64,000 bases of DNA from IMG/VR virus record IMGVR_UViG_3300032116_000067, positions 36,265 through 100,264 of that record. The stretch is one strand, 5' to 3'. Under the pieces are notes generated by a model. It was given only the letters and a program-made list of their open reading frames with translations, did no database searches and was not told the DNA's origin. Both the position numbers and the translations under genes were made by a program. The DNA comes from a virus. Every line of letters starts with the position of its first letter. The stretch's first letter is position 1. Shown here in pieces: positions 22,643-63,893 of the stretch.

Positions 22643-22687
22643 TTGTAGAAATTATTTTGGAGTTCTATAACAAGTTCTCTAAATTTA
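22643..22687 (+). promoter_or_regulatory. promoter/operator region
   Basis: TTGTAGAA (22643-22650), AGTTCTATAAC in the middle, and AGTTCTCTAAATTTAC around 22680-22687. The last resembles the 14151 minus-strand promoter AGTTCTCTAAATTTG. It precedes the gene at 22711. Confidence 0.5.
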
Positions 22688-22710
22688 CACCCCACAAAAC
22701 ACAGAAGCAC

Positions 22711-22908: not shown

Positions 22909-22927
22909 AGTAACCTTCATCTCCTGT

Positions 22928-23980: not shown

Positions 23981-23992
23981 ACTACAATTCCC

Positions 23993-24619: not shown

Positions 24620-24620
24620 T

Positions 24621-45100: not shown

Positions 45101-48100
45101 CTTGCTGATCTGATCTTGCATTTTGATACGCTCAGATACTTTTGCATTAGAAGCAATGTTTTCAAAACGCTCAAGAAGATCTGTGAGTTTCTTGATCATC
45201 TCAGCCAGATTAGTATCCTCGTCAGTCTCTTCTTTTAATGTCACTGGAAGAAGGTAATCTTTATTAGGATCAGTATACCTGGTATCAACAGGGCCTATTT
45301 CTACACTCTTAAGGCTGTCAAGTTTCTTTTCACCTACTTTACCTGTATAGTTAAAGTTTGTCTTAATAGGTACAGCGCGAATCTTTCCGAACTTAGTGAA
45401 TCCATAGACATTACGAAGAATATTCACATATTCTTGTAACTGTATCTGATAAGCTTTCTCTTTATACGAAGGAAGCTCGGTTTTATCTTTCCCGATTTCC
45501 TGGCTCTTCCAGTCGTATACGTTTACTGTACCGTCTGGAGTGATGGCGATAAAGTCAATACTACCGGCCATGTCTTGTGTCGGGTCATAGATCTTAATCT
45601 CCCGCATGAAGACAGTATTTGGGTCGTAGCTACTGATCAGCTCTCGAACGTATGAATCAAGGGTATTGTAGTAATCAGTGCCGACATACTGTGACCGTGA
45701 AGCTACTGGGGTAGCCCTGCGTTTGTTTGTATTGGGATCTATATAAGAATCAATGATGTCTTCAATAGTAGCGTGGATCATATCTCCATACTCGGCTTTT
45801 AAGAGATCAAGCTCTTTTTTACGCTTGTCTCTTTTATCCTGGCGGAAGATTGACCGGTAGTAAGGATCCACCTTAGCCGTAGTTACGTTTTTAGAGATAG
45901 CTTTATCACCCCTGTAGTAGATGTGACGCTTCTGCCCGGTCCGGGGATCTACGCTGTTATCCAGACGTAAGAGTTTGGCTTCTTCTTTAAGCTTGGTTAC
46001 TCCATCGTTAAGCTGATAATACGTACCGTCTAGTGATTTAGAAGTGTTAAGATCAGATACATCTGCAGATAAGATCTGCTTGGCAACCTGCTCAAAAGGA
46101 TTGTCTTCTACCCTACTAAAAGATTTAGTAACAAACTCCCAAAGCTTAGCCCACCACTTGTTCAAAAAGCTCAGACGCTCGGGAGTTTCTTTACCCTCGT
46201 TCTGTCTGATGATAGCCTGGGCAACCAGTTTACCTATCGCTTCCTTCTTGAGCTTAACGAAGTTGATGCCCCCGCCAGGTAGTCTGTACTCGGGGCGGTT
46301 CTTGTATTGTTCTACGGTTTCACGATAGAGCTCATAGCTGGTGATCTTGTCCATCATCTCTTTGAGTAAGGGACTATTGTCATCCAGCATCTCTACAAAG
46401 AAGTGAGCGGCTTCTTCCGGCAGAGTACTTAGATCTGCGTTACCTTCTATGATCTCAATGATCTTATTGAGCATATCGGCTTTAGCTATAGCTGATACCG
46501 GCTCACCGTTCATGTCTTTGATCTGATTAACTTTCTCTACAGAGACTCCTATCTTATCAAGGAAGTTCTTGATCTTCTGATCAAGCTCTTTGTTTGTCGG
46601 CAGAGAAGTCTCCTTAGCTATTTGCAAATAGGTTGATGACTGTGTACCTGACTGAGCAACAAACTGCTTGAAGCCTTTTACATCTTGTTCACTACCTAAT
46701 ATGTGAATCTGTTCTGGTTCAAAAACAGCTATTTCTGTATTTCCTCTTATAGCACCCGTCATACCATCTACTCCAATAGCTGATAGCTGTGGTGAATAAT
46801 TTCCTATATATTTTCCATGATCACCTGTAACATAAGGATCATGAGGTATGCCGCTCAGTTCAGAAAGGGCTTTTTCAAAGATTCCTAACCCTTTTTGATC
46901 TTTGAAACTTGTTCTATCAATGATTTCTCTTCTGGTAGATAGATTTTTAACATTTAAGATTACGGATTCAGTATGACTTCTATTGGCATCATATTTTTTA
47001 GTTCGATCAGTATAGAAATAAAAACCGTCTCCTAAAACACCTCCGTCAGAAATACCAATCATATCTTTTCTAAAACCTTCTATTTTGATCTGACCTTTAC
47101 CGCCATCGTGATACACAATATCTTTCACATTACTATCAGGAAATATAGTATCAAGATATTGAGAGTATAGTTGTTGAGCTTGTTGTTTTGCAGACCTAGC
47201 TTTTTCAAATATATAATTTGATTTATCAGTCCCTGAGAAGTTTTCAATTATGTCGGGTCTTTTTTCAAGCAGTTTTAAATAAGCAGTCTTACCTAAACCT
47301 TTTCCTTGATATTCTGTTTCAATAACAGACTGAAAAATACTTGTACCTTCTACTTGAAATTCTCCTATATATTTTCCTTTTAACTTTATTATATAATTTT
47401 TACCCATTGGAGAAGATGGTAAACCTTCTTCAATGGTTATATCATTGTAATTATTAAACCCTAAAGCTTCATATACAGCATTAGCTAATTCAGGATTCTC
47501 CTGAAACAATTCAGCTACACCGGGTTTTACCGTAGAGCTTGCATCTTGATTGGTCTGATAGTAAACAAACTCAGAACGAGACACACCTAGATTATTCGGG
47601 GTGGACAGCACATAATCCTGCTGATCTTTTTCACGTTGAAACAGTCTTTCTTCACTGTTTAACGGACTCATCTTAAGCTTACCGGCATAGATATCTTGCC
47701 AGCTTTTAAAGATGTCTACGTCTGTTTCTTGTGACTTATAATAATAAACAAAGAAGTCAGTGGCTATGACGTTTTCACTTGTCATAGGTACTACTTTTCC
47801 TGTAGCTTTCTCAATAACTTCTCCTTTTTCTGCCCAACCGTTTACCTTTCGCTTAGTAACTCGCACGTCATAACCGGCTGCCGGAATAAAGTAAGCGTAC
47901 GTTGTATAGTTATCACCTTTCCAACCATTATGGACAGGGACTGCACCGATCTGATCCATATAGTTTACAAGATCATTATAATCCTGTACGTCTTCTACTA
48001 TAAAATCAAGATCATGTATAGGCTCCGATGACGGTCTGTAGATCTTCTCGCCTTGTCCTGCAATAGCCAAGCTACCAACTAGCTTAAAGTTAAACTTGTT

Positions 48101-48892
48101 CTTAGTGAACGTATTTATAATATTCTGAGCATGGGGATTGCCATCTAACGCTTTTTGAAAGTCAAGCTGCTCTTTAGTGTTGGTCAGGTTTGCTATGTAG
48201 TTCTGATTACCAGAAAGAACATTGACAGCAATCTTATCAGCTAAGTACTTAGAAGCAAAGACAGCTTCAAGAGGATTAGCAAAAAGAGTATCTAACCTGG
48301 CAAAGAACTCTTTAACGATCTGTTTTACTTTGTTCAGTAATGATTTATCTAGCCCATACTGATCATAGTTTTCCACCATGGCTTGCGCGATCAGCTTTCC
48401 TATGGCTTCAATCTTTACCTGCTTCTCATTATTATAGATCGGCATGTACTTGTCATAAACCTCTTGATATCCAGACCATAGCTTGATCTCGGAAAGCAAG
48501 CTCTTTATGTCTGAGTGGTTCTCTCCCATGAGCATTACGATCATGTGGGCCGCCTCTTCCGGGATAGTATCTTTCCTGCGTTCTTTGTTGTACCAGATAA
48601 GCTTGTTTAAAACATCAGTAGCTCCCAAGGCATCTATACCCAGACGTTGTTTCAAGGATTCAAACTCCTTGGATTTTACTCCAAAAGGCTTAAGGAAGTT
48701 TAAAAGAAAATCATCTAACTCTTTATTAGCCTGGGTAGTCAAGGGGCTTGCCAGCTGGTAGTAATTCCGCATGATCTCATCCATCGTCAGATTTGATCCG
48801 GACATATCCAGCACTTTAGCTGCCAGGGGTTCCGATCGTAAAACAGACAGCGTTTGTTGTACAAGGGGTAAGGACTTATTAAGACACTTCAT
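42137..48892 (-). CDS. giant polyvalent protein with MNT-, GNAT-, ART- and PD-(D/E)XK-like domains
   Basis: 2,251 residues from ATG 48892, four bases after the stop of the RNA polymerase gene. A helical module with EEAAH (112-116) is repeated at about 770-940 (EEAAH 826-830). Between them lie three domains. First, a nucleotidyltransferase-like fold: GSLAIAG at 273 and HDLDFIV, D294/D296. Second, a GNAT-like motif YQGKGLGKTAY (528-538). Third, an ADP-ribosyltransferase-like domain: IVYHDGG about 592, GDGFYFYTD about 621, FEPEQIHIL about 724. A PD-(D/E)XK domain follows: H1040, AGSIDFI with D1113, DWK 1127-1129, QLQEY 1151-1155. The remainder is coiled coil and a C-terminal region with FRSWMPQMVKERFG, familiar from crAss-like giant proteins. 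Probably virion-packaged and injected; effector roles inferred. Confidence 0.8.
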   Translation of the reverse strand: MKCLNKSLPLVQQTLSVLRSEPLAAKVLDMSGSNLTMDEIMRNYYQLASPLTTQANKELDDFLLNFLKPFGVKSKEFESLKQRLGIDALGATDVLNKLIWYNKERRKDTIPEEAAHMIVMLMGENHSDIKSLLSEIKLWSGYQEVYDKYMPIYNNEKQVKIEAIGKLIAQAMVENYDQYGLDKSLLNKVKQIVKEFFARLDTLFANPLEAVFASKYLADKIAVNVLSGNQNYIANLTNTKEQLDFQKALDGNPHAQNIINTFTKNKFNFKLVGSLAIAGQGEKIYRPSSEPIHDLDFIVEDVQDYNDLVNYMDQIGAVPVHNGWKGDNYTTYAYFIPAAGYDVRVTKRKVNGWAEKGEVIEKATGKVVPMTSENVIATDFFVYYYKSQETDVDIFKSWQDIYAGKLKMSPLNSEERLFQREKDQQDYVLSTPNNLGVSRSEFVYYQTNQDASSTVKPGVAELFQENPELANAVYEALGFNNYNDITIEEGLPSSPMGKNYIIKLKGKYIGEFQVEGTSIFQSVIETEYQGKGLGKTAYLKLLEKRPDIIENFSGTDKSNYIFEKARSAKQQAQQLYSQYLDTIFPDSNVKDIVYHDGGKGQIKIEGFRKDMIGISDGGVLGDGFYFYTDRTKKYDANRSHTESVILNVKNLSTRREIIDRTSFKDQKGLGIFEKALSELSGIPHDPYVTGDHGKYIGNYSPQLSAIGVDGMTGAIRGNTEIAVFEPEQIHILGSEQDVKGFKQFVAQSGTQSSTYLQIAKETSLPTNKELDQKIKNFLDKIGVSVEKVNQIKDMNGEPVSAIAKADMLNKIIEIIEGNADLSTLPEEAAHFFVEMLDDNSPLLKEMMDKITSYELYRETVEQYKNRPEYRLPGGGINFVKLKKEAIGKLVAQAIIRQNEGKETPERLSFLNKWWAKLWEFVTKSFSRVEDNPFEQVAKQILSADVSDLNTSKSLDGTYYQLNDGVTKLKEEAKLLRLDNSVDPRTGQKRHIYYRGDKAISKNVTTAKVDPYYRSIFRQDKRDKRKKELDLLKAEYGDMIHATIEDIIDSYIDPNTNKRRATPVASRSQYVGTDYYNTLDSYVRELISSYDPNTVFMREIKIYDPTQDMAGSIDFIAITPDGTVNVYDWKSQEIGKDKTELPSYKEKAYQIQLQEYVNILRNVYGFTKFGKIRAVPIKTNFNYTGKVGEKKLDSLKSVEIGPVDTRYTDPNKDYLLPVTLKEETDEDTNLAEMIKKLTDLLERFENIASNAKVSERIKMQDQISKYRKAIRDLHLRKDIRTFIELGSIEVDRYDKMLKNNTLSERDALESLDILKIFSGTTFYFKNYMTELRKAMNEEKNSAMKQVYQDILNRYNSLNSNAEITVKEMKRAIMQLGQKMAEDKAGIQNLLNAETKVGPIAGLFDSLSQISQRAFKAFYRILRDSQAKRDMLFNQSLETLRTLQKELGDWAKARNISPDKMFDGILDMDEKGNWNGQFLRKHKKEAYKVRKKAIEEADINWVKSNMNFDKTWYEKDLASYTKYVMNMTYNTDPQINAAIQQKTINNWIANHNVTANGDNPAAWLNAQNKYLRFNDTWITDKWKNLQKPENAPLLKVYNEFQKLLRKSENLGMIDEYSWGFIPSIYKDKLDQLAFGGSVFTSKGFFEELEVGTDDKYTPKVDPINGKVLLNIPVHFTKDIGEEKEDGTVDYSQKSKDLFKVFGVWSAQMANYETLSEIEDAANILVHVERNKDQIVTNNWGDVVKKNGVAQTVPDNERNAKLLESFVNFYLYNKMGDNTTDSKFKFRDKEYSANKSLRWFMKFFSLKTLALNPISGTAQFVGGTGNALFTAGKKTIFTTKDWATSMYQVTKRDPKTIALLHYADILLEDRKDAFTNELSVSKIVGFNSLDKLYFIQRFSDKAVQYPVAIATMMNHMVDTNGKIVDITKMVKQEFNYDQVYYNVLPAERKALKEKIDARVKELKETKSIYATTKIVKDKLEIPGIDISSKEWFAFKSKIKQVNKTIIGNSTRDDINYARTTQLGMAIMQFRSWMPQMVKERFGKLDYNQDLELYNMGKTRLFFSELIKHPMTIAKSIISSSGTDMIQAAKQRYIEERADAALAGKEFNLTEAEFIDLYIGNIRSQLRELAVVVGMLALIFAAKPGDDEDEERGLRKYITRALEKYYAEFSFYYLPTSFTELVQAPLPVVGLAVDFINFTKATSKQFYGVAVDDTELQEDAKPMKYASRLIPILKEGILMRAIFDDDFRKDWDIRL

Positions 48893-48896
48893 AGGG

Positions 48897-51800
48897 TTAG
48901 AGGTTACACTTTTTGTAGTATTCAAAGTTTTCTTGTTCTGACATCAGCGGGTTAGCATTAGCAGCTGCCCATGTTTTATATGCTGCAGAGTTACGGATCT
49001 GATCATCTGTCTGTGATGCTTCTGGTGCCTGCTGAGTGGCCTCTTTGAAAAGCTGGATGTTTTCTCCAGGTATAACAATATTACCATTAGCTTCTTCAAG
49101 TCTTGGAGAACGAGCTCCTATCTGACCTTCAGCTCTTAGTCCTCTAAAAATAAACCTGGTACCATTCTTATCGTAAACAACATCACCATCTTTTAAATCA
49201 GAGTTGTTTACAGCAGCACGTTGACCAGCAGGACTCCAAATACCTGTAGCATCTTCTCTTGTATATTCTTTAGATGCCAGATAACTAGCCATAGCTACTT
49301 CACCTACATTGTATCCGCTGGTATTATCCAAGTGAGCTTTTGTATCCATGATAAACCGGGCTCTTGCTGCAATAGCTTTATCAATGTTTTGATAAGCACC
49401 CTGAAGCTGTCCATTGTTTACATTTACAAAACGCTGTCCTCTGTTTCCATTAGAAGAAACATAAATAAGATCAGAAGAGCTGTAGTTACCTGTATTAGCC
49501 AGACCTACCTGAGCGTATGCGTTTTCCATACGCTGAGTAGTAGAGTCATTACCTCCACCGGTACCGATAAACTGAGTTGCTTGACGGATCTTAAATAGTT
49601 CTTTAGGCAAGTGCTTCTTAGCAGACTCTTTCACATAACCAGGAGCAGTCACGATAGCTTCTACTTGCTTTTGTTTTGCAGCTACATCACTCGTAACAGA
49701 TCTGCTTTGCTGACTAGCTACTGGAACTACTTCATAGATGTATCTAGACTGCTTACCATCAACAAACTTTTCTGAAAACTGCTGGTTCTTTTGGAAGTCA
49801 GCCCAGTCTTTAAAGCCTTCTGCTTTAGCAAATTCATCACCGGCCCAAGTTCTACCTGTATCACTGGTAGTGACAAGCACGCTATCACCAATGTATTCAA
49901 CGTCAGCTTGACCTTGATATGTCAACTTTACTTGAGTTCCGTCTGGTAATGTATAAATACCATTAGCAAGTTTAGAAGTGCGGTTCGTTATAGTTTTTGT
50001 ACCTGCTTTAATCTTAGCAATATTTCCAGGCTGCATAGCTAAAGAAGCTGCCGGTTGACTAGTACTAGTGACCGAAGCAGGCTGACTAGCTATGAAAAAC
50101 TTACTCTGAGCAGAAGCTACTACCAAAGGTTCTGTCTGTTGAGGAATAACCGGCTTGACTATACTTCCTGGAGTAGTAATAGAGATATTGTTTTCAGGTA
50201 TGTGAGTGTTTTGCAAAGCTCCAGTGTTTAGATCTACGGTATGGTTCTGAGGGAGAATAGAAGGCCGGTTATCAGTATACACCTCTACAAACCTAAAACC
50301 GTCTCCAAGCTTCTGTATAGGACGGAAGACTGCTACGGCTCCATCTCCCATATCTACATCACTCTGTACTTTCTCATATATCACAGTTTCATAAACTTCA
50401 TTGTAACGCTTTTGTTTTAGAAGTTCTCTTTTGCGTTCTTCGTTACTCCGACCTTTGATATCCGGTCGTACAAAAACCCTAGCTACATAATCATATTCAG
50501 CATCCACATAGTCAGTACTTATCAAGATGTTGTTTGTTGTTTTGTCAATCTTGACAAACTTGACCTTAGGTGTGATGGAACTGTTCTTCCAGTTGTTTTG
50601 ATGGAACTGTCTCCACACCAGCTGCGGATCCACTGCTATACCGCTGTTCGTAAAGTTGGTCATGATCTCATTAACCACCCGGGTGTACAGATGTACGGGA
50701 AGGATCTTATTGAAGTTCAAACCACCTTCTTGAAGACCTGTCTGCAAGATAGCAAAAGTACCTAAGTTCTCCACGAAATTCTGTAGAGCTGTGTTACCGG
50801 TAGCTTTAGCGTAAGTGTAAAGGTTCTCTACAGACTCGATCAGAACGTTGTTCTTATAGGTATCCATCCTGTTCTTAAACAGTTTGATGTTATCTACCTG
50901 TGTAGAGTCAGAGTTCAATATCGGTAGCAGCTCTTTTACAACCAGGTTTTCAGAGATGTTTGGATCATTCAGCTCACGCAGATACTTCAACTGCTTACCC
51001 ATAGACATGGCCCCTTTCATCAGACTCTCGTATTGTGCGTTCAGCGAGGTCTGCATACCGTTCTTGATGTACGGGGTAGTCTGAATGATATAAGTGATGA
51101 AGAAGTTCTGGTACTTGTTGATCAGCTCTGCTTGATCTTCCACACCCATCTCAATCTCTGGATTGTTGATCTGACGTTTCAGCGGTTCAAAAGCCGGTTG
51201 AGCTTTCGGGTGCAGAGACATAAAGAACTCCTTAAACAGATTAGGAAGATCCTCTTTCTGAGATTTCATCTCTCCAATGAACGTATCCAGGATAGCTTCA
51301 GGGTTAGCAATAAACTTGCTTTCTGTCATCTTGTTCCAGCGGCTATTCTGCAGCTCGTTCTCAATGATAGACTTAGTTCTGGTGTTATCGTAACCAATAG
51401 CCTTGATAAACTGCTTGAGGAAACGAGACTGCTGACTGTACTCTAAATAATCAACAAGCATGCCCAACTGGAACCGGGCATCTTTTTCGTTCAGCTTATA
51501 CCCTTCAGCATGATAGTTCTTGATAGCATTTCTTAACTGCTCTGTTTTTACCTGTTTGTTTTCTTCTTGGATGCTTACCAAAATCTCTCCAGTTTTCTCA
51601 CGTATTGCTTTAATTGCCTTACGTAAGTTCATGATCTCCCGGTTCTTATACCTAAAGTCATAGTCACCTTTTTCAAGATTGTCAATCTGATTCATCAAGT
51701 TTGTGACGTTCTCATAAGTATCTTTTAGATCAGGAATCTGATTCATGTACGGAGCAGCTACTTTAAGCATCATGATGAAGTTAGACATGTTGTCTCCGTT

Positions 51801-54800
51801 CGTCTTCTTAAAGTAAGACTGGTTCTTTGCCTGTTCTTTGAAGTACTGGTCAATGATCGGCTGATTGAACATGTAACCTATATCTTGAACCGGTACACCT
51901 AACTTCTGCAGATAAAACCACGTATCAGCTGTAGCCAGGTTCAGGTTGAGCTCAAACACAAAAGGATCTTTAGCCGCATCCACAAAACCAGTAAGAGCTT
52001 CGGAAATCAGTTCTGATATCCAGGCACCACTCTGATCTTGCTTAGCGTACAAATAAAGCTCACCTTCTTTGTTCTTATTATGCTTTAGACGAATCACTAT
52101 ATCTTTTGTACGCATGCCGGGGAACAGGTACTGCAGTCTCTTAGGATCGTACGTACCTGTAAGTTTAAGACCGGCAATCTGAGCCATAGTGTGTGATGTG
52201 GTATGAAGAGCCGCGGTGCCCACCATTGTTTTACCGGTGATATAACGCTGACGTACTTCCGCCATAGGAACAAACTTTCTTAAAGCAAGGATAGACTTCT
52301 CAGCGTCCTTTTTACCCTTAAGTTGTTTCATCTCATCGGCCATGTTCTTTAGCGTGGTAGCACCGTTTGTTACAACTAGCTGACGATAATTTTCCGGAAG
52401 AGCCACCAGTTCTTGCATAATCTCTTTAAACCGGTTCTGCAGACTCTTCTTTTCATACTTATGAACAAATTCATTTACAAAATCAGTTTCATCATTGGGA
52501 GCGTCTTCTCCAAAGATGGTGTTAATCAACTGATTAGTAGCTACAGTTGTCCGCGTTTTCTCAGCATACATCTGCTTGGCAATCTCAGTAAGCTGCTCTT
52601 CGGTCAGACCTCTTTCCAGGTATTTTATCTTACCCCCAACAACATAGTAGTTAGAAAGATAGATGTTCAGTTTATCAATGTCAAAGTCAGATCCGGCTTT
52701 ACCTACGATCTCAGAAGGTACTACCATCATATCTCCCATCTCTTGAGGCAGGAATCCTTTGATGACCATGTTCTCAATAGAGTTCATACCCTGGGTTGGG
52801 ATACGGAAACCGACAGCTTTGAGAAGCTCACTATCGAACCACTCAGGTATGATCATATTACCATCTTTGTCTTTAACAAACTGGTACACCCCGTTGGTCA
52901 GTTTCAGTCCCATGTCTTCCGGAGAAACACCATCAAAGAACCAGGGAAGGTATACTTCCATACCCTGGATGCTACCGTTAACGTTACGATAGAACTTCAG
53001 GTCATTAGAGGTAGCCCGGATGGTTTTCTTCTCGTCTTTGGTCAGTTCTTTATCTCCTACTTCCTCATAGATTCCGTCTTTATTCAGGTACATGAAGGTC
53101 CGGTTACCAGCCTCGAAGCCCGTAGAAGCAACCTGTACGGCAGCCTTACCAAACATCTTTTCAGAGATCACCCGGCTGTCAACAATAGAGTTAAGAATGT
53201 TATCAATCTTATTACGGTTAGCCAGGGTATCAAACTTATACATCAGTCCAGTACCGTCGGCAGTAGGCTGAATAGCGTCGATTAGATTGTTTGGAAGATC
53301 TCGCTTTTCAAGCTCGTCCCGCAAAAGCTGGATCATGTTCTTAATATTAGCTACAATGTAGCTACCATCTTCCATCCTTTGTATACCTAGCTCTTCTAAG
53401 AGCTCTTCTTTGCCTAGACGGATCATATCTACCAGAACATCATTGTATTCTTCGATCAGCTCTCCAGCACGTTGTGAAGTAAACTCTCCATTGACTTTAA
53501 AATTGGTCATCACCAGTTTAGTCACCTGAGTACCGCGTACAACTTTTGTTTTAGCAATACCGGGTACTTCTTGCTGAATACCGTAGTACCGGGTATAGAG
53601 TTCCTGGACCGGCAGGTCTTCTGGAAAGTTTACCGACTTGGTGTTACCCCTCTCATCATATTCTACAGTAGCATTAGCCTGTCCGTTGTTGTCATAGATT
53701 GGTAAGAATTCACCTTTATTGTTCAGCATGTTGCCTACTTTCTGACCCGACTCATAACCAATGATGTCTACTTGATTATTTTGAGCACCCAAATAGATGT
53801 TCTCAAACTGTGTGTTCTCCACATGACGGTAAAACTTAGGCTGTACTGAGTGCTTAAGAAACACCGTCTGCATCAGACTGGAGTTCTTTGCATAACCAAA
53901 GTATTGAGGCTTAAGCGGTTGCATGATAGCCCCGGGACTACCCGCTTTGACTATCTGCTTAAACTGCTCCATCTGCTCCTTAGTATAGATCTTAGAGTAG
54001 TCTTTGTATGCTGGATGGTTTTTACGTTTCTGGCTACGGCTTACAATCTCATAGGCTTTTTCATACTCCCACTGGCGAAGCTGTTCTTTGCTAAACTTAG
54101 CTGACAGGTAAAGCATATCCCGGTAGAAATCCGGCATGATATACCCCTGACCATCTTGCTCGGTAAGGTCTATGTAACCTTTGATCTCACCAGTAAACTT
54201 CTTATCCTTGTCTAAGATGAAGCTTTTGAACTTACCATTCTCGTCAAATCGTACACCAATCCTGGCTTCAGCTGCAGATTTGCTAAGATCTTCTCTCATT
54301 GACGCATACATACCCTCTGCAATGTCTTTATAGAAAACAGACAAAGCGGTTACATCCTGAAAAGAGACGTTCTTAAACGTCTGGATTACATCGGCACTAC
54401 GAGACTTACCATCAAGACGAGGCATGTTAGCATCCATCCACTTGATAACTTCATGGTTATCAACGATGGCGTCTTTAGTAGAGTTTGCACCATTAGCCCG
54501 CTTAGCCAGATCTTTATAGATAACTGGGTGACCGAAGATCAACTTGTGCTGCTCAGTAACCGCGATCTCTTTATTGACAGCAAGATAAGTCATCAAGGAC
54601 TCTATCTCGGCCTGGTTCATCTTATCTCCGGTCAAGTTCAAAGTAGCTAAGAGTTCATGGCTGATAGCTTTTGTACTGTATTCGTAGACCGGACTGCCGG
54701 TAGAAGTGTTGCCTATCTGTACCCGAATTATAATATCCAGGTCCATGAGTCCCTGCAGAGTTTCCTCAGTCAAGGTCATAATGTGCAGCTGAATAGCTTC

Positions 54801-57800
54801 GGTTACTGCAGGTTTATTCAAAAAGGCTTGCTTGGTCATTTCACCGGTAAGCACTTTATCAGTAAACTCTTTTACCAGATTGTCACCCAGGATTTCACGA
54901 TAGTGACCCAGCTTCTTAACCTCTTTAGAATAATACTGAATATTGCTGGGTACCTGCTGTTCCCGAATAGCAGCATCCATCTCATCTTCTAACTGATCAA
55001 GATAGATGTCAATGACATTCTGGAAATCCGGAGAAGTAATCTCTGCAGAAGCATCCCGATAACTAACAAAGCTTTGATTGATACCGATACCGAATTCAGT
55101 ACTCTTGTCAGAGTTAATAATCGTATAGTGAATATTCTTAAGCAGATAGTGGATCTCCTGCATCACCCGGTCCGGGTAAGTGAGGTCAGCAGTATTTGTA
55201 CCGTCACTATTCTGCTGAGCTACCCCGGAAATCAAATGATAATTCAGATCCATGTTGGACCGCTTGTTTCCGTCTTCATCAAAGATAAGACCGCCCTGAC
55301 GGAGCAACAGACTACGTGACTGATACGGATGCAGAACTACGGCCCCGCTTCCGTCTATGTATCCAAACTGCGGATTACTTGTAACAAAGTCAGCCAGCGT
55401 CTTAGCGTCGTTCAGTGAGTTCAGAACATAAGTAACGTTAGAAGGAAGTGTGATAGAATATTGAGGCTTACCGTCTGCGGTAAAGTGCATAAGCACGTTA
55501 TCCTCAGCGTTATACTCTACTTCTATGTCTATCAGATCATTGATTGCTTTGTTAACAATGTTCGGACTATAAAGCTCTGCCATAGTGTTAATGGTACCGT
55601 CCGCGATCTTCTCACGGATAGCACTAAAGCTTCTGGCAATAACTACCTTGTGCTTCTTAAGTTGCTCATTGTCAACAGAAAACTTGACACCAACCTGTCC
55701 CAGGATCTCAATCATTTGATTGAACGTGGGTCGGCCCATCATGAAGTAAGGCTTGGACGTGTTAGCCGGATTGCCTTTATAAACATGACTCTCGCGGTCT
55801 ATTACAATCAAACCGTTATCAGCTACTCCCAATAGGGTCTCCGGGCTTTTACGAGAAAGAGGTTGAACAGTAGTCATTACATTGTTCTCCCACTGCTCCC
55901 GAATCTTTACCTGAGAGTTTGTCTGTATAGGATCGGTATCAAAGATGTAGCCGTTTTCTCCAATGATTGTCTTAACCGGAAGGTTTTGTTTATTCATCAA
56001 AGACTTCTCAAAACCTATCATTAGGCTGATATCATCAGCAGTGATCTTTGCTGAATTAAAGTACGCACCCTCGGCACCTGCATACTTCACACGGTTCTTC
56101 AGACGCTGAATCCAAACGTAACCAGGTTTGTATCTACCATTTGGCAGCTTATACTTCTGATCCAGTTTGTTGAACATGTCTGTTAATGCGTCAATAAACC
56201 GACCCCCCTCTATGCGGGAAGCTGATCCATTCAGCTCATTGATCAGTAGATTATGAACATCATCAAAGTCAACCATCTTAGGTAGGCCCAGGTTGTTCTT
56301 TTCAAAGACAATACCCATTGGGTTATTATCTGATTTCGCTACTTCGTTATACGCATCACTAGTGAGTGAGCCAATAAGCATGCGGAAGTTTACAGCGGTA
56401 AGTCTCCGGGGATCTATAAAAATACTATCCCTTATACCCAAGGCATCCGTAACTGAGTCTTCTTTTTTACTAACAAACTCTTCATCGTCCTGGTTAGTGG
56501 ACTCCTTAAACTGAAGACCGAACTTCTTCAATGAAGTCTTCAGATTATTGTATATCTCTTTAGGATAAGCAAAAGCCTGCTCAATCTGATGAGCGTTACG
56601 GTTCTGATTAAGATACTGGGTATAGACATAAGTCAGTTCTTCTTGAGTCAGTTCACGACCCAGTTGAGCACGAACCGGATTAACATAACGTTCGGCAAAG
56701 ATAGAAGACGAACCAATCAAGTACTGCTTCATGTCTTCCATACTCTGAACAAACAGTTCTCTTAGCAGCTGATTAGTTTTGGCTCCTTTGTCAATCAGAC
56801 TGTCAATGTTCTTCTGACTTTTATACAGATTCATGAAGAAGAACCCTGTAAGTCCTTCTGTAAACTGAGTACTGAATTCCTGGGTAGTTCCCGGGATAGC
56901 TTGAGCATACACTGTACCCATAGCTTTGACATCCCGAACAGTCTTGGCGTTTGCGTACTTACCCTTATTGATGGACTTATAAACATCATTGATCAGCTTT
57001 TCAGCTTCTGATTTGTTTGACAAACCAAACCAAGCTTGGATAGCTTCCCACAGTTCTTTGAAGAATGCCAGGATCTTTCCGCCGTATGTACTACGTTCAA
57101 GCATGTAATCCCGCATACCTTCAGCCAACATCTCTCGTACGTCGTACATAGAGGCTTGACTATAAGGTTTGGTCTCTTTCGTGAACGGGTTAGTAAACTC
57201 TCCTTTAAGAGAACGGAACGCCTTAGCCAACTCTACCTGCTCTTCTACAGTCAGATAGCTTCCCCATACTGCTTCAAACGCTTCGTGGAAACCGGTTCCT
57301 TCTTCTGCATTCTCAGCAAGATATACGGCACCATCTTTAAAAGCACCCCAAGCTATACCGTCGATCATCTGGGCTACTTTTTCCAGAGGTATCTGCGGGA
57401 GCTTCTTACTAAACCAAGCCGACAGTTTTTTAAAGTCTTCGTTCTTTTTGACAGTATCTAAAGCTAATCGGTATACATTGTTTACTTTGTCATCTGGAGC
57501 ACTAATGCTCGGCAGACTTTGCTGATACTGATCAGAAAGTATCTTATCAATCAGAGAGCTTGTCTGAGGAGCAGCTGTCTGCGTTGTCGGAGCTACCGGA
57601 GCAGGAGGCGGAGCTACCTGTCCAGGCATGGCAAACGGATTAGCAGTAACAGGGGGATCCTGTACAGGAGCTTGGGGTTGACCACCTGACGGTATAAAGA
57701 AGTTCAGACCAGCAGGAGCTGCCGGTTGAGCTGGTTGAGGTGGTTGCTGTACCGGTGTAGAAGGTATAAAGAACGGATTCTGTGCTACCGGAGCAGCTTG

Positions 57801-60800
57801 TGCTTGAGCTGCGACAGGTTGCTGAGCAGGTGCAGCACTTGGTGTACCTATAAAAAACTTTGAAGTTGTAGTGGGAGCCGGTTGAGTTGCTGCTGATTGT
57901 TGTGACTGTACCGGTAAAAAAGTTAGCTCTTGATCTATAAACTTCGGTAATAAGTATTTAGTAAGTATGTTAACAATCTGTAATTCACTTGTGGCTGTTT
58001 TCAACTGTTCTCCGACATCTTTTAAGATTTGAGCCTCAGTAAATTTTGATTGAAACGCTTCGTATCTTTTTTCATCCAGAATTGAAAAAACTTGATTTAT
58101 TAATCCTGTAGTATCAGAAGCAGATAGAATCTGTGTTTTAAGACTGATTAGCGCGGATCTTTTATCGTTAGAACCAGATGTAGCGGCAGGTTGACCAGAC
58201 GGTATAAAGAAAGACATAGCTCCGGCGTTTGCTACAGGAGCCCCGTTAGGTTGTGGAGCTGCGGCAGGTAAACTTACGTTACCTGATTGTACTATTACTT
58301 TAGGAACGATCGGATTGTCCGGATCCTGAAAAGTAAAGTATACGCTCTTAAGCTGAGGAGTCAGATCGTCAGGGCTGTAAGTTGGCGTGTTGGTGTATAC
58401 CACCGGCGTTCCCAACAGACGTTCTTTACCTTTCAGATCTTGTGTACCCAGCAAGTAGTGAACATAGTTCTGATACTCGACCTTGGTGATCTTATTATTG
58501 TTATCAACAATCACCTGGAAGAAAGGATTCTTAGACTTAACCAGCTTGTTGTTAACTTGATGATATAGATTATCAGTCAACATCTGCTTGGCTCCTTCTA
58601 TAGCATCTGCGGTCAGAGCTACGACATTCTCACCCCGGTGTAGCATTCCGGTATCCGGATTGATAAAGAACTTGTTAGCACTAGGGCTTGTGTTCTTTGG
58701 ATCCGTCCAGAATACCAGACCGTTAAGATAGGTCAGAATATCATCCAGATCCCGGGCTTCTTGTTTAGACAACGGAGTGGTCGGAGAATTCTTACGGGCC
58801 AAAAGACCAGAAAGTACTTTCAGAACATTGACAAAGTTGTCTTTCTCAGCCTGGGAAAGCTGACGGTTGAACACACGGAACGTAGTACCATCTGCCTTTT
58901 GCATAACAACCCGGCCAGGTTTCACATCTACAGCAGTATTATCTTTTACAGTAGAGACGATAAGAGAGACCGACTGTCCATCAGGGTGTTCCAAGTTGTT
59001 ATAGTCCATCGTTTCCTCACTGATCAATCTTCCTTCTAAAGGAAGTTCTTGAGGCAAACCATTAGCATCTTTCTCAACATAAACTTGAAGTCCTTTGCTC
59101 TTACCCGTTACCGGAATATAAGCTGGTTTACTGGCAGCAACGTCTGATTTGATCTTTTCACGAAAAGCTTTAAGACGTTTAATGTGATCGAGTATCTCTG
59201 CGTCAGTAACACCTTTTGGTGTAAAACTTCTTTTTACACTGTTAACGGCAGCCTGGGCATCTGTACCAAACATGGTAGCATTACCATGCATGCTGGTATA
59301 GATCAGTGTTTCTTTAGTTGGGTTTTCCTGTACGTTACCATTTACGTCAACGTACTTGAATTCATTACCAACCTTCTTGACAACAACCAGCTTGATGTCA
59401 TCCTCATAAACATCAGTCCTACGAATACCAAACGTATCGTTAGCTGCCGTTACGGGCATCAGGTAGTACTCATCGTTAATAATGTCAGCAGATGCAGACA
59501 GCTTATAGAACATGGCATTGTTATTCTCCATGTTCAGTTGTGTGTCAGCATCATCCATGAAGTGACGCCCGGCCGTAGTAAACAGACCATTGACTGCCAA
59601 CAAAGGCATCTTTGTGTCATAGTTATAAAAACCCTCTTCCTGAGAAACTTCCTGGTCAGCCAGCTTATCTCCCAGCATATTTTTCTGTACAACTTCAGCT
59701 GCACTAGCTTGACGCTGAGCTGTTTGTGCAGAAGTCTCTGCTTGATATTGAGCGGTGAAGCCTTCCTGGATTGCTTTTAAAAACTCAATTCGTTCCTGTA
59801 AAGACGTAACTAGTTGTTTTTGTTCCAGTGCTGTTTGCAAACGAATAAGCTTAGGTGCCAGCTCATCTCTTTTTTGTATCAGGTATTCCAGTTCGGAAAT
59901 AGCTTCCCTATATTGATTAGCTAACTCTGCTGTATATGCTGTATTAATACCTTTACCACTAGCAAGTCCCTTGCGTAGTGCCTTAACTAATTCTTGTTTG
60001 ACAATATCATCAACTGCAGTATCAAGTCGGGTTCCTAAATCAGCACCTTCCGGTGTAACTGTATTCTGACGCTCGAGCATCTTGAGTGCGTTACGCAACT
60101 GTTCTCGGTCAGTAATATTCATGAGAATATCTGCAACATCCTTATAAGCAAGGATCTTACTTAACGTCTTTCGTAACGTGTTGATCTGAGCCTGTAAAAG
60201 ATTTACCCGCTCATCAATCAGACTAATCTCAGCTTCTGTATCACTGATCATACCTGTAAGCTGATCACTATTGAAGCGAGTAGTGATCTGATTCTTTTCT
60301 GCTACAGCCAGTTCTTTTTGTTCTTCGGAATAGATAACACCGCTCTGGTCCCGAAGGAAAGGTTCCCCGGACTCTTCCAGTTCAATGAGACCTTCATAGT
60401 ACAGTTCATTAGTTCTGTTCAGTGCGTCCAGTAAAGTGGTAAGGTCTTCCTTCTCTTTCTGCAGCATAGCCAGCTGCTGTTCTTTTTTACTGATTTCAGC
60501 CGTGAGTTCCTGAGCCATTTTTTCCATGGCTACGTACACCTCACTCTTCGGACCGCTGATATACGGATTCTTCTCCAGGTACTCAGTAGCTTCCTGGAAC
60601 ATCTCTTTAAGATCCTTAAGTTCTTTTTCAAACTTCTCAAACTCCTGATTATTAGCCTCACGACGGGCCTGGGCTTCAGTTAGTTTTGTTTCAGTTTCAG
60701 TAATCAGATTGTTCAGGTACTCTTGTTGTTTCTCGTACTTTTCTTTGATCTTAGCAGCCTGAGCATCTGCTGCCGGTTTTTGATTAGCAAGTATAGCTTC

Positions 60801-63800
60801 CAAGCTTTGCTTGTTAATCACATAAGTCATATCAAAGTCAGAGTACCGCTTCTTCCCTGTAGTAGGATCCAGGTATACAAAGAGCAAGTCCTTCTTGTCC
60901 TTGGTCAGGGCCACCCGACCCTTGACTATTTTAGTTTTATACTTTCCGTTAGCTTTCTTTATAGGCTTACCACTAGCATTACGTTCAAGAACCCTGTACT
61001 CTATAGACTGATTACGTAAACTAATGTAAAGTTTCTGATCATTCGTTAGAGATTCATATTTTTTCCAGTTCTCAGATATTGCTATATCAGCTAGCTCAGC
61101 TGCGGAAATTTCTAAGGTTTCACCATAAGAAGCAATAGTAATTACAGAACCGTCTTCAGAAATACTTACGATCTTAATCTTATCGTTATTAAAAAGAAGA
61201 ACTGGATTCTTCTTTCCGGTAAACTTTACAGACTTATGAAGCTTGCCAATGTACAACTCACCTTCAGTAATATCAACAGACTTGGGATTGTTATTTTTAT
61301 CTACTCCTGTCAGGGTTATAGTACGTCCCAGAACCGGTGCCGCAGCTGTTTGTGTATCAGCCTGAGCTTCTGCAGTTGCCGTTAAGGGGTCAACGACCTC
61401 CTCTTTGAACATCTGCATGAAGTTTCTCTTACCGTTGATTGTATCAGCGTACTTAGCCCACTCAAAACCAAGAGCACGAATATGATTCTGCATCTCACCC
61501 TTAAGCCGTACTTTCTTTTTATACTGATCTGAAATACCCGGCTGATTACGGTTGGGCTTTTCATACTGATAGAACCCATCTTTGTCTTTTTTCAAAGAAG
61601 CTAAAGTAGTCTGATTATTCTTTTCCAGTTCTTCAGTAGCCTGTTTGATTTCTTTCATTACCTCTTCAGCTACCTGTCTGCGAATAGCAGTATCAGGACT
61701 GGTGCCTAAGTCATCAAGTATTTCTTGCTGAGACTTAAGACGCTGATTCAGTTCATTGAGTTGATCTACAAGTCCATCTGACAAAGAAGAGTTTTGGGTA
61801 TTTACCAGTTGGTTCTGTAGCTCAGTGATATAACCCAGGTTTTCTTCCTGGAGCATCTTGTATACCGCTTGGTCAGCTGCAAGTTTAGTTAAGAAGTTTT
61901 TGCGGGCAGTATCTTCTTTGCTTCCGTCTAACAGAATGTCAGAGTTAATCAGCTTGTTCTGGGTAACAATACTGGCCGCGAGCTTCTTGTATCGGTTAAT
62001 CAGTTCTTTAGCATTATCTCCGGCAACAAAACCAAGTTTAGCAAGCTCCTGTGGAGTTGCTTTTTCTATATTAGTAAGCTTGTCTATAACAGTATCTCCA
62101 ATACCTGCGTTGATATGTGCAATAACATAGTCAGCAAAAGCAGTATCCCGAAGCAGCTCCCGTTGGAACCCAGCGTTAAGTTTACCGGCTTCATCTAATG
62201 CTGCATTAACACCAGTATAACCGGTGAGTACTCCTGCAAGTTTGTTTTGATCAACAATAGGTTTGTTGTTCTGATCAAGAACAATCTGTTCGGTCTTAAT
62301 GTCATTACCGTTTTCGTCCTTAGTTATGACTTCTTTAGTACGGTATATGTTACCAAACTTTAACCAGTTGTCCTGGGCGTTATTATATGCAGTAATAGCT
62401 TGGTCAGTCATAGACTGATCCTCTCGTTGTTGAAAGAACGAAGAGGTTCCGCCACCCAACACACCAAGAATACCACCAAGACCAATACTTTCAGCAGCTT
62501 CTTTATCTCTACCGGTCAGTGCATTGATAGTCTGATCAGTAAACTGTGATATGAAATTACCAATCAACCCAAACTCAGCAATCTTTCCTTTATGACCGTA
62601 CTGTTCTGTCACCCGTTGAATAGCCAGCTGAGCGTTCTCTTCTACAAAACCTTCAGAAACAATACCTTCTACCCCACCTTTAAGAAAAGCACCTTTACCA
62701 GAAGACATGAACTTGCTGAACTTTCCAATGGCTTCTTGAGCTACCATTTTGTCTGAAAGACCTGTAGCTCCAGCAACACCGCGGACAGCAGCTTTTTCAG
62801 CACTGTTGAACATTGAACCCAACCACTTGAGCTCTATTGTATTTGTAGCGGCAAGTAAAGATGCGTTCAGAACAAAAGCATCTTGTGCTCCTTGTCCGGC
62901 AATCCTTCTTTTTTCTTCATCTGTGTAAGGGGCTCCGGTTTCTGGATTGATACGCAGACGTCCGGTCTCATCTGTTGTCAAAGAGTTCATGATGCTAGTC
63001 CGGGTACCCGCAGCTTCAAACATAGCTTCAGACCCGGTAGCCAGGGCCCAAGCATTAAACTTGTCTATGCCGGTCTTAAACACACTATTGGCTTTGGTCA
63101 GATAGTTCTGAGCCATAGCAGCACCTTCTATAGATGCTTCTGCTGCTCCTATGCCAAATCGGGCGCGGGACAGACCTTGGGCTATCTTAGTACCCAGGTT
63201 CAGTTTAGACAGTCCTATCCCAGGTACCCAGGCAGATACCAGAAACGCGGCACCATCTACTGCGTCTGTCATCCAGAAGTCACCGTCTGTAAAGAACTTA
63301 TTCCAAAAGCCTTTTTCCCGATCAGCTGATTCCTGGAAAGTAGGTAACCAGTCTTGTTTTGTTTTCTCATCAAGCTGATCAAAAAGAGCAGTGATTCCAT
63401 TATCAGCAGCATTACTAATGATATCCTCGTTCCAGTTACTTGGATTAGCCAGTCCTAACAGAAAACCAGCACCCTGACCAACTTTGGTCACAACACCAAG
63501 GCCGAAACGAGCTACACCTTTTCCAAAGGTTTTGAAGGGACCTTCAGCTTCTCCATAGAGATCATCCATGTCTACCCCATACCGATAGCCGTAGGGCATG
63601 TCTTCGTACTTTCTTGTCTGTTCGCCGGATATAGTACGAGGACGCAAAAAGTCATTATCAGCAAAAGGAGATAGACGAGCTGCATCAGCCTTAGCTGAAT
63701 TGATAACGTCTTGATATGATGGTGCCTTTTTTGTAGGGGGATCAATAGGTTGACCCTGACCACCAAGAGGATCGGCAGCTTGTTGCTGCATGCCTTCTTG

Positions 63801-63893
63801 AGTATCAGCACCTGATTGCAAACCTAAGTTATCTTCTAAGCCTTGGGGAAGACCAAAGTTATCCAAACCTTGCTCAAAAAGGTTTTCTGTCAT
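48897..63893 (-). CDS. giant virion RNA polymerase fusion protein
   Basis: 4,998 residues in one frame. The RNA polymerase signature GSDFDIDKLNIY has its three aspartates at 3736, 3738 and 3740 and matches the double-psi beta-barrel metal site of crAss-like virion RNA polymerases. N-terminal ~500 residues carry Gly/Ala-rich hydrophobic segments. Long coiled coils span about 650-1500. A Pro/Ala/Gln-rich linker (about 1880-2120) holds repeated FFIPS motifs. HEAFE sits at 2203-2207. The polymerase part fills roughly 2300-4500. The C-terminus has an ASCH-like segment (about 4615-4720) and an IGTGGGNDSTTQR domain (from about 4772). Family members are packaged and transcribe early genes after entry. 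Far longer than the roughly 2,200-residue enzyme known from a Cellulophaga crAss-like phage. Confidence 0.88.
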   Translation of the reverse strand: MTENLFEQGLDNFGLPQGLEDNLGLQSGADTQEGMQQQAADPLGGQGQPIDPPTKKAPSYQDVINSAKADAARLSPFADNDFLRPRTISGEQTRKYEDMPYGYRYGVDMDDLYGEAEGPFKTFGKGVARFGLGVVTKVGQGAGFLLGLANPSNWNEDIISNAADNGITALFDQLDEKTKQDWLPTFQESADREKGFWNKFFTDGDFWMTDAVDGAAFLVSAWVPGIGLSKLNLGTKIAQGLSRARFGIGAAEASIEGAAMAQNYLTKANSVFKTGIDKFNAWALATGSEAMFEAAGTRTSIMNSLTTDETGRLRINPETGAPYTDEEKRRIAGQGAQDAFVLNASLLAATNTIELKWLGSMFNSAEKAAVRGVAGATGLSDKMVAQEAIGKFSKFMSSGKGAFLKGGVEGIVSEGFVEENAQLAIQRVTEQYGHKGKIAEFGLIGNFISQFTDQTINALTGRDKEAAESIGLGGILGVLGGGTSSFFQQREDQSMTDQAITAYNNAQDNWLKFGNIYRTKEVITKDENGNDIKTEQIVLDQNNKPIVDQNKLAGVLTGYTGVNAALDEAGKLNAGFQRELLRDTAFADYVIAHINAGIGDTVIDKLTNIEKATPQELAKLGFVAGDNAKELINRYKKLAASIVTQNKLINSDILLDGSKEDTARKNFLTKLAADQAVYKMLQEENLGYITELQNQLVNTQNSSLSDGLVDQLNELNQRLKSQQEILDDLGTSPDTAIRRQVAEEVMKEIKQATEELEKNNQTTLASLKKDKDGFYQYEKPNRNQPGISDQYKKKVRLKGEMQNHIRALGFEWAKYADTINGKRNFMQMFKEEVVDPLTATAEAQADTQTAAAPVLGRTITLTGVDKNNNPKSVDITEGELYIGKLHKSVKFTGKKNPVLLFNNDKIKIVSISEDGSVITIASYGETLEISAAELADIAISENWKKYESLTNDQKLYISLRNQSIEYRVLERNASGKPIKKANGKYKTKIVKGRVALTKDKKDLLFVYLDPTTGKKRYSDFDMTYVINKQSLEAILANQKPAADAQAAKIKEKYEKQQEYLNNLITETETKLTEAQARREANNQEFEKFEKELKDLKEMFQEATEYLEKNPYISGPKSEVYVAMEKMAQELTAEISKKEQQLAMLQKEKEDLTTLLDALNRTNELYYEGLIELEESGEPFLRDQSGVIYSEEQKELAVAEKNQITTRFNSDQLTGMISDTEAEISLIDERVNLLQAQINTLRKTLSKILAYKDVADILMNITDREQLRNALKMLERQNTVTPEGADLGTRLDTAVDDIVKQELVKALRKGLASGKGINTAYTAELANQYREAISELEYLIQKRDELAPKLIRLQTALEQKQLVTSLQERIEFLKAIQEGFTAQYQAETSAQTAQRQASAAEVVQKNMLGDKLADQEVSQEEGFYNYDTKMPLLAVNGLFTTAGRHFMDDADTQLNMENNNAMFYKLSASADIINDEYYLMPVTAANDTFGIRRTDVYEDDIKLVVVKKVGNEFKYVDVNGNVQENPTKETLIYTSMHGNATMFGTDAQAAVNSVKRSFTPKGVTDAEILDHIKRLKAFREKIKSDVAASKPAYIPVTGKSKGLQVYVEKDANGLPQELPLEGRLISEETMDYNNLEHPDGQSVSLIVSTVKDNTAVDVKPGRVVMQKADGTTFRVFNRQLSQAEKDNFVNVLKVLSGLLARKNSPTTPLSKQEARDLDDILTYLNGLVFWTDPKNTSPSANKFFINPDTGMLHRGENVVALTADAIEGAKQMLTDNLYHQVNNKLVKSKNPFFQVIVDNNNKITKVEYQNYVHYLLGTQDLKGKERLLGTPVVYTNTPTYSPDDLTPQLKSVYFTFQDPDNPIVPKVIVQSGNVSLPAAAPQPNGAPVANAGAMSFFIPSGQPAATSGSNDKRSALISLKTQILSASDTTGLINQVFSILDEKRYEAFQSKFTEAQILKDVGEQLKTATSELQIVNILTKYLLPKFIDQELTFLPVQSQQSAATQPAPTTTSKFFIGTPSAAPAQQPVAAQAQAAPVAQNPFFIPSTPVQQPPQPAQPAAPAGLNFFIPSGGQPQAPVQDPPVTANPFAMPGQVAPPPAPVAPTTQTAAPQTSSLIDKILSDQYQQSLPSISAPDDKVNNVYRLALDTVKKNEDFKKLSAWFSKKLPQIPLEKVAQMIDGIAWGAFKDGAVYLAENAEEGTGFHEAFEAVWGSYLTVEEQVELAKAFRSLKGEFTNPFTKETKPYSQASMYDVREMLAEGMRDYMLERSTYGGKILAFFKELWEAIQAWFGLSNKSEAEKLINDVYKSINKGKYANAKTVRDVKAMGTVYAQAIPGTTQEFSTQFTEGLTGFFFMNLYKSQKNIDSLIDKGAKTNQLLRELFVQSMEDMKQYLIGSSSIFAERYVNPVRAQLGRELTQEELTYVYTQYLNQNRNAHQIEQAFAYPKEIYNNLKTSLKKFGLQFKESTNQDDEEFVSKKEDSVTDALGIRDSIFIDPRRLTAVNFRMLIGSLTSDAYNEVAKSDNNPMGIVFEKNNLGLPKMVDFDDVHNLLINELNGSASRIEGGRFIDALTDMFNKLDQKYKLPNGRYKPGYVWIQRLKNRVKYAGAEGAYFNSAKITADDISLMIGFEKSLMNKQNLPVKTIIGENGYIFDTDPIQTNSQVKIREQWENNVMTTVQPLSRKSPETLLGVADNGLIVIDRESHVYKGNPANTSKPYFMMGRPTFNQMIEILGQVGVKFSVDNEQLKKHKVVIARSFSAIREKIADGTINTMAELYSPNIVNKAINDLIDIEVEYNAEDNVLMHFTADGKPQYSITLPSNVTYVLNSLNDAKTLADFVTSNPQFGYIDGSGAVVLHPYQSRSLLLRQGGLIFDEDGNKRSNMDLNYHLISGVAQQNSDGTNTADLTYPDRVMQEIHYLLKNIHYTIINSDKSTEFGIGINQSFVSYRDASAEITSPDFQNVIDIYLDQLEDEMDAAIREQQVPSNIQYYSKEVKKLGHYREILGDNLVKEFTDKVLTGEMTKQAFLNKPAVTEAIQLHIMTLTEETLQGLMDLDIIIRVQIGNTSTGSPVYEYSTKAISHELLATLNLTGDKMNQAEIESLMTYLAVNKEIAVTEQHKLIFGHPVIYKDLAKRANGANSTKDAIVDNHEVIKWMDANMPRLDGKSRSADVIQTFKNVSFQDVTALSVFYKDIAEGMYASMREDLSKSAAEARIGVRFDENGKFKSFILDKDKKFTGEIKGYIDLTEQDGQGYIMPDFYRDMLYLSAKFSKEQLRQWEYEKAYEIVSRSQKRKNHPAYKDYSKIYTKEQMEQFKQIVKAGSPGAIMQPLKPQYFGYAKNSSLMQTVFLKHSVQPKFYRHVENTQFENIYLGAQNNQVDIIGYESGQKVGNMLNNKGEFLPIYDNNGQANATVEYDERGNTKSVNFPEDLPVQELYTRYYGIQQEVPGIAKTKVVRGTQVTKLVMTNFKVNGEFTSQRAGELIEEYNDVLVDMIRLGKEELLEELGIQRMEDGSYIVANIKNMIQLLRDELEKRDLPNNLIDAIQPTADGTGLMYKFDTLANRNKIDNILNSIVDSRVISEKMFGKAAVQVASTGFEAGNRTFMYLNKDGIYEEVGDKELTKDEKKTIRATSNDLKFYRNVNGSIQGMEVYLPWFFDGVSPEDMGLKLTNGVYQFVKDKDGNMIIPEWFDSELLKAVGFRIPTQGMNSIENMVIKGFLPQEMGDMMVVPSEIVGKAGSDFDIDKLNIYLSNYYVVGGKIKYLERGLTEEQLTEIAKQMYAEKTRTTVATNQLINTIFGEDAPNDETDFVNEFVHKYEKKSLQNRFKEIMQELVALPENYRQLVVTNGATTLKNMADEMKQLKGKKDAEKSILALRKFVPMAEVRQRYITGKTMVGTAALHTTSHTMAQIAGLKLTGTYDPKRLQYLFPGMRTKDIVIRLKHNKNKEGELYLYAKQDQSGAWISELISEALTGFVDAAKDPFVFELNLNLATADTWFYLQKLGVPVQDIGYMFNQPIIDQYFKEQAKNQSYFKKTNGDNMSNFIMMLKVAAPYMNQIPDLKDTYENVTNLMNQIDNLEKGDYDFRYKNREIMNLRKAIKAIREKTGEILVSIQEENKQVKTEQLRNAIKNYHAEGYKLNEKDARFQLGMLVDYLEYSQQSRFLKQFIKAIGYDNTRTKSIIENELQNSRWNKMTESKFIANPEAILDTFIGEMKSQKEDLPNLFKEFFMSLHPKAQPAFEPLKRQINNPEIEMGVEDQAELINKYQNFFITYIIQTTPYIKNGMQTSLNAQYESLMKGAMSMGKQLKYLRELNDPNISENLVVKELLPILNSDSTQVDNIKLFKNRMDTYKNNVLIESVENLYTYAKATGNTALQNFVENLGTFAILQTGLQEGGLNFNKILPVHLYTRVVNEIMTNFTNSGIAVDPQLVWRQFHQNNWKNSSITPKVKFVKIDKTTNNILISTDYVDAEYDYVARVFVRPDIKGRSNEERKRELLKQKRYNEVYETVIYEKVQSDVDMGDGAVAVFRPIQKLGDGFRFVEVYTDNRPSILPQNHTVDLNTGALQNTHIPENNISITTPGSIVKPVIPQQTEPLVVASAQSKFFIASQPASVTSTSQPAASLAMQPGNIAKIKAGTKTITNRTSKLANGIYTLPDGTQVKLTYQGQADVEYIGDSVLVTTSDTGRTWAGDEFAKAEGFKDWADFQKNQQFSEKFVDGKQSRYIYEVVPVASQQSRSVTSDVAAKQKQVEAIVTAPGYVKESAKKHLPKELFKIRQATQFIGTGGGNDSTTQRMENAYAQVGLANTGNYSSSDLIYVSSNGNRGQRFVNVNNGQLQGAYQNIDKAIAARARFIMDTKAHLDNTSGYNVGEVAMASYLASKEYTREDATGIWSPAGQRAAVNNSDLKDGDVVYDKNGTRFIFRGLRAEGQIGARSPRLEEANGNIVIPGENIQLFKEATQQAPEASQTDDQIRNSAAYKTWAAANANPLMSEQENFEYYKKCNL

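Follow-up and report, generated by a model that had tools for sequence, protein, structure and literature searches.

A single giant gene of a crAss-like phage predicted to join an ejection companion, a zincin-like domain and a virion RNA polymerase

The giant gene and its neighbour

The window analysed here is a stretch of 64,000 nucleotides, corresponding to bases 36265-100264 of a virus record of 100,264 bases, in which a search for end repeats found none. On its minus strand lies an open reading frame of 4,998 codons, followed by a second, separate cargo gene. The frame starts with ATG and contains no internal stop in the standard code. The following features were assigned:

48897..63893, minus strand: giant gene, 4,998 aa, predicted to comprise an N-terminal cargo companion, linker, zincin-like domain, virion RNA polymerase and accessory tail; collinear single ORFs in the contigs L021, L003 and L022
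58344..63893, minus strand: predicted gp47/g067-type companion, residues 1-1850 (hhalign matches)
57504..58223, minus strand: Pro/Ala/Gln-rich linker, residues 1891-2130, with repeated FFI[P/G] peptides (sequence; repeat enrichment against shuffles)
58197..58214, minus strand: linker motif SFFIPS (1894-1899)
57843..57860, minus strand: linker motif KFFIGT (2012-2017)
57759..57776, minus strand: linker motif PFFIPS (2040-2045)
57687..57704, minus strand: linker motif NFFIPS (2064-2069)
57084..57434, minus strand: zincin-like domain, residues ~2154-2270, with a helix, three strands, HE helix and Glu helix (AlphaFold secondary structure, pLDDT 80; homologous to the HEAFH domain of crAss001 gp47)
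57273..57287, minus strand: H2203-E-A-F-E2207, HExxE replacing HExxH (sequence, alignment)
57120..57137, minus strand: R2253-E2254-M-L-A-E2258 helix, with E2254 as putative third ligand and R2253 as the paired position (alignment)
50229..56768, minus strand: virion RNA polymerase, residues ~2376-4555, of the size of phi14:2 gp66 (limits from laying gp66 on DFDID; profile and model matches to 6VR4)
53847..53912, minus strand: KPQYFGY...FLKHS, residues 3328-3349, with lysines 3328 and 3347, of the presumed beta-type barrel (both lysines invariant in 64 sequences)
52674..52688, minus strand: DFDID, residues 3736-3740, metal-binding motif of the beta'-type barrel (sequence and profile match)
50085..50102, minus strand: KFFIAS (4598-4603), in which the linker motif occurs for a fifth time, immediately ahead of the accessory insertion
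49224..50096, minus strand: accessory insertion, residues ~4600-4890, largely absent from L021 and without a credible Pfam or phage-record match
48900..49223, minus strand: conserved C-terminal tail, residues 4891-4998, 71% identical to L021 over 104 columns
42137..48892, minus strand: separate downstream cargo gene, 2,251 aa, in the gp49/g065-type position, with its ATG where homologues begin, 4 nt after the stop of the giant
46706..47119, minus strand: ADP-ribosyltransferase-like domain (ART-PolyVal) in an insertion of the downstream protein (Pfam PF18760, E=5e-6, 27.7 bits, below the 31.2 cut-off)
45401..45814, minus strand: PD-(D/E)XK nuclease-like domain of the downstream protein (Pfam PF12705, E=5e-5, 23.9 bits, above the 22.0 cut-off on the segment)

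The genome is assigned to the crAss-like phages (Crassvirales), since its portal (phrog_6547, E=4e-91), TerL (phrog_6681, E=6e-64) and major head protein (phrog_11589, E=1e-29) all match PHROGs families. The portal is 21-32% identical to crAss-like records, with the Leptolyngbya phage Lbo-JY46 as the best match, followed by csAssE-Sib and gut crAss phages. Lbo-JY46 (L020), recorded on a cyanobacterium, encodes within 12354-25260 a portal 32% identical to the one of this phage and a gp47-type protein, all annotated as hypothetical; in the 2,748-aa neighbour of the latter, DxDxD was not matched with the pattern used.

The original prediction had identified the frame as a crAss-like virion RNA polymerase with extra domains, based on a DFDID motif at residue 3736, and both the position of the motif and the identity of the enzyme were borne out. 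Searches of the whole giant against Pfam, PHROGs and NCBIfam gave weak matches or none, and as a single sequence it had zero matches in the PDB, so that a profile of 64 aligned sequences was needed. This profile matched the solved phi14:2 enzyme (PDB 6VR4) with E=7e-128 along 1,115 of its positions (residues ~3088-4202), with the DFDID aspartates and lysines 3328 and 3347 invariant in all 64 sequences. An AlphaFold model of residues 3060-4250 (mean pLDDT 89.2, pTM 0.88) retrieved 6VR4 in a Foldseek search (E=1.8e-33, probability 1.00, TMq 0.63) as the sole PDB match below 0.001, while the next matches, mostly largest subunits of cellular RNA polymerases, were not significant. The proposed structure prediction and comparison with the solved enzyme are thereby in agreement with a fold of two double-psi beta barrels, a correspondence that applies to the model as a whole rather than to the individual atoms of the barrels. 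By profile and predicted fold of this core, the enzyme can be firmly assigned as a crAss-like virion RNA polymerase of the phi14:2 gp66 type, with residues ~2376-4555 as its limits estimated from the size of gp66. When the phi14:2 enzyme (2,180 aa, DFDID at residue 1361) is laid on the motif, 2,375 residues precede the polymerase and ~443 follow it, close to the approximately 2,200 and 500 first estimated.

The N-terminal ~1,900 residues are assigned as a companion of the gp47/g067 type. In hhalign comparisons, residues up to ~1,850 matched phi14:2 g067 (E=3e-15), an ORF of Lbo-JY46 (E=2e-21) and crAss001 gp47 (E=3e-9), the last of which reached 6e-43 via a second set of environmental giants, whose own homology to the window's giant is at 5e-74. 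As controls, g065, gp49 and the downstream protein of cr118 (Suoliviridae) were not matched by this region. At the other end, the C-terminal ~440 residues form an accessory tail that is variable and for the most part not present in L021, the nearest relative. An ASCH-like identity of the C-terminal insertion, suggested by a likeness seen by eye, found no support in Pfam or phage records and is not claimed.

The downstream ORF was listed as 42137-48925, but its likely start is the ATG at 48892, because the homologue in L021 begins there. Its product is homologous to the counterparts of cr108_1 (E=6e-53), crAss001 (2e-7) and Dulem 41 (3e-7), with phi14:2 g065 reaching just 6e-4. In phi14:2, the genes abut in the order g067-g066-g065; in the window, the counterparts of g067 and g066 make up one gene, and this separate gene occupies the third place. 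The idea that companions are fused into the giant holds for the one of the gp47/g067 type, which lies upstream of the polymerase, but not for the one of the gp49/g065 type. Measured against the definition of a polyvalent protein, that is several unrelated effector domains in a co-injected chain (PMC5512222), the downstream protein has one Pfam match above the cut-off and two below, the second of these being a GNAT match in its insertion. An N-terminal EEAAH domain occurs twice within 46586-48892, as residues 12-222 and 780 onward both match the N-terminal region of L021, and the insertion between the copies, which holds the GNAT-like and ADP-ribosyltransferase-like parts, is absent from L021 and L003.

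Continuity of the frame and fused giants among relatives

Since the record is linear and the giant gene lies near the contig end, two genes might have been joined into one long frame by an assembly or sequencing error, an outcome that was initially named as one that would undo the prediction. However, the frame has a stop upstream of the ATG, in the 107 bases that remain up to the contig end, which indicates that the contig edge did not create the start. The same fusion is moreover found as one frame in three other metagenome contigs, namely L021 (4,603 aa, 70% identity, collinear), L003 (4,770 aa, 51%) and L022 (4,522 aa, 36%). Mismatches between the window and L021 are concentrated at the third codon position in all segments, also in the linker and at the junction, with frequencies at positions 1/2/3 of 0.19/0.10/0.51 for residues 3501-4000 and 0.37/0.28/0.53 for the linker. 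The independent contigs, together with this conserved frame and purifying codon pattern across the junction, rule out an assembly artefact, and as the fusion is in addition common among relatives, the probability of such an error is negligible. The frame at 48897-63893 is accordingly taken as real.

Fusion of companion and polymerase is already known, as fused crAss-like virion RNA polymerases are mentioned in the literature (PMC10770324) and crAss-like genes of up to ~6,000 aa have been described (PMC10136315). Annotated single coding sequences with the polymerase motif are present in the Suoliviridae cr4_1, cr118_1, cr50_1, cr52_1, cr55_1 and cr56_1 (4,461-4,946 aa; some of them need TAG to be read as Gln), and the Flavobacterium phage Fpv1 has a fused giant of 4,401 aa. 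A survey of IMG/VR yielded 83 loci with 63 complete ORFs containing the motif, which is found at residue 2,000 or later in 61 of them. Sixty of the 63 are fused, with L035 counted as split for its break in the linker zone, a proportion that refers to the 80 best matches to this clade, including some near-identical loci, and not to an unbiased census. Among the environmental relatives surveyed, the fused form is the usual one. The expectation of an enzyme of around 2,200 aa with separately encoded companions describes one arrangement among others, given the six Suoliviridae, Fpv1 and the IMG/VR ORFs.

Two apparent exceptions were noted. In cr108_1 (L006, NC_055878.1), a group I intron at 18368-18686 (RF00028, E=2e-20), absent from the features of the record, interrupts the catalytic DxDxD codons. 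The apparent layout of this polymerase as separate split genes is explained by this intron in the DFDID codons, and after splicing cr108_1 would carry one fused giant too. In L069, the giant is broken at 9869-9909 into 2,512 and 1,653 aa with an overlap of ~40 bases; this split is probably a frameshift or sequencing error, because the near-identical L072 and L075 are unbroken.

Among known systems, phi14:2 gp66 with g067 and g065 resembles the giant in polymerase sequence and fold, two-barrel motifs and gene order. Its companion and polymerase are, however, separate abutting genes, whereas in the window they form one chain with the zincin-like domain in between; an HExxH/HExxE motif was found in neither the companion nor the polymerase of phi14:2. 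In crAss001, the parts matching the giant are distributed over gp47 (N-terminal part plus zincin domain) and gp50 (polymerase), and gp47, gp49 and gp50 are three genes on two strands, unlike the fused giant. The giants of the Suoliviridae and Fpv1 are, like the one in the window, single proteins, here of 4,401-4,946 aa with the polymerase motif at residue 3154-3520, although their N-terminal halves were not clearly similar to that of the window's giant when its profile was compared with single sequences. The Suoliviridae giants also hold the zincin-like domain, but with a canonical HEA[FW]H where the giant in the window has HEAFE, while no zincin motif was found mid-chain in Fpv1. Further parallels are the virion RNA polymerase (gp50) of coliphage N4 and gp96 of Thermus phage P23-45. 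The former, too, is a giant polymerase and is ejected as one chain that includes an injection region and an HExxH domain (PMC5512222; PMC12633501), but it has a T7-like fold unrelated to the two-barrel enzyme and carries HExxH after the polymerase. The latter, a giant protein of the virion with 5,002 aa, also contains a fused two-barrel RNA polymerase (PMC10770324), but in this long-tailed phage the polymerase lies at the N terminus and is fused to the tail tape measure.

The zincin-like domain and its paired switch

Between linker and polymerase, where gut crAss phages have HEAFH or a close variant, the giant carries HEAFE at 2203-2207. As this differs from HExxH, the domain is named zincin-like and is not counted as an active zincin metallopeptidase. 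The order of its predicted secondary structure fits the zincin core of helix, three strands, HE helix and Glu helix (PMC5512222), and the top PDB matches in Foldseek were SprT-type and M32 peptidases, at non-significant E values of 0.6-1.0.

The paired HExxH/HExxE and charge switch is the freshest observation of this analysis. HExxE is present in 59 and HExxH in 28 of 87 aligned sequences, and most of the environmental relatives share the HExxE form with the giant. HExxE is always accompanied by Lys or Arg before E2254, and HExxH by Glu or Asp at this position in 26 of 28 cases, so that a Glu-to-Lys/Arg change 46 residues downstream is paired with the first switch. On the polymerase tree, the first site requires eight changes and the second seven, and seven of eight independent pairs go in the same direction with none opposite (sign test, p = 0.016). 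The domain's own tree, built without the switch columns, again gives eight and seven changes, and its five to six starred pairs agree in direction without exception (p 0.03-0.06). Since eight changes are still needed on this tree, an explanation of the paired switch by domain exchange is not supported.

These repeated paired changes might mean that the HExxE domain has a structural role alone, as a pseudo-protease connecting companion and polymerase in which the metal site is replaced by a Glu-Lys/Arg pair, a reading that is compatible with the others and has a chance just short of even. However, the first His and the catalytic Glu of the HE pair never vary (87/87) and E2254, the putative third ligand, hardly does, which would be odd for a dead site, and for the tree of the domain itself the sign test is not clearly below 0.05. 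Given the invariant HE pair, the site may have kept activity in a changed form, and the domain is best called zincin-like, with an altered yet maintained site. A broader proposal, which we put forward tentatively and hold to be somewhat doubtful, is that the in-chain metallopeptidase of crAss-like giants has repeatedly been converted between HExxH and HExxE, nearly always with the Glu to Lys/Arg swap beside the third-ligand position. The domain would thereby switch back and forth between an active protease and a non-canonical form that is maintained, and perhaps the processing of the giant after ejection would switch with it. Fusion state does not track the motif type: both types occur in fused genomes, and the few split genomes are mostly of the HExxH type.

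Packaging, ejection and possible processing

All these observations make it quite probable that the gene encodes one giant crAss-like cargo protein, in which an ejection companion of the gp47/g067 type is followed by a flexible linker, the zincin-like domain, a virion RNA polymerase complete with both barrels, and variable C-terminal accessory domains. From its relatives we infer that the giant would be made late in infection, packaged into the capsid alongside the separately encoded gp49-type protein, ejected with the DNA, and would then transcribe the early genes. Virions of crAss001 contain gp47, gp49 and gp50, which are thought to traverse the tail partly unfolded (PMC10172136), and N4 ejects its 383-kDa virion RNA polymerase as a single chain with the HExxH domain kept (PMC12633501). 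Literature searches for virion proteomics of this phage or of any fused crAss-like giant found nothing usable.

The original prediction had asked whether the chain is cleaved or ejected whole. By analogy with these systems, it is rather likely that the 4,998-aa chain is packed whole and would pass through the tail as one partly unfolded chain. Whole-chain passage is favoured because the fused state is the rule among relatives, because naturally occurring splits lie within or close to the linker/zincin zone and do not follow the protease motif, and because the sole in-chain protease-like site is non-canonical in this lineage. These natural breaks lie at about 1858-2141 in L035, that is in the linker zone, and after the zincin-like domain in crAss001, cr128_1 and Dulem 41.

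The same breaks imply that both halves can work as separate chains, which would suit a polyprotein that is cut in the Pro/Ala/Gln linker or beside the zincin-like domain, during assembly or after ejection, into a gp47-like protein and a gp66-like polymerase. In line with such processing, zincins in giants of this kind have been proposed to process multidomain polypeptides (PMC5512222), and the linker carries repeated hydrophobic peptides that differ by lineage, namely FFI five times in the window, F[VI][IFL]N four times in L021 and K[WF][AV]I three times in L003. In L021 and L003, the repeats particular to each are found in the first linker, and in L003 they are present in the second one as well. 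The counts were reached in none of 20,000 shuffles, with patterns chosen after the sequences had been seen. These lineage-specific peptides could be docking or cut sites, and the linker could be cleaved by a protease of the host or by a different one of the phage, with the FFI-type peptides as possible targets. Nevertheless, the HExxE motif here and in the majority of aligned relatives, the occurrence of both motif types in fused genomes with mostly HExxH in split ones, and the description of the N4 enzyme with its intact HExxH as a single chain (PMC12633501) all argue against cleavage, and we regard a polyprotein as unlikely.

The picture derived from phi14:2 and crAss001 is corrected by these findings, since most surveyed environmental crAss-like phages have polymerase and companion in one chain of ~3,700-5,100 residues. 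How a protein of ~550 kDa is ejected through the tail thus becomes a general question for the crAss-like group, and the fused and split relatives, together with those carrying HExxH or HExxE, provide a ready set for testing the ejection of the giant.
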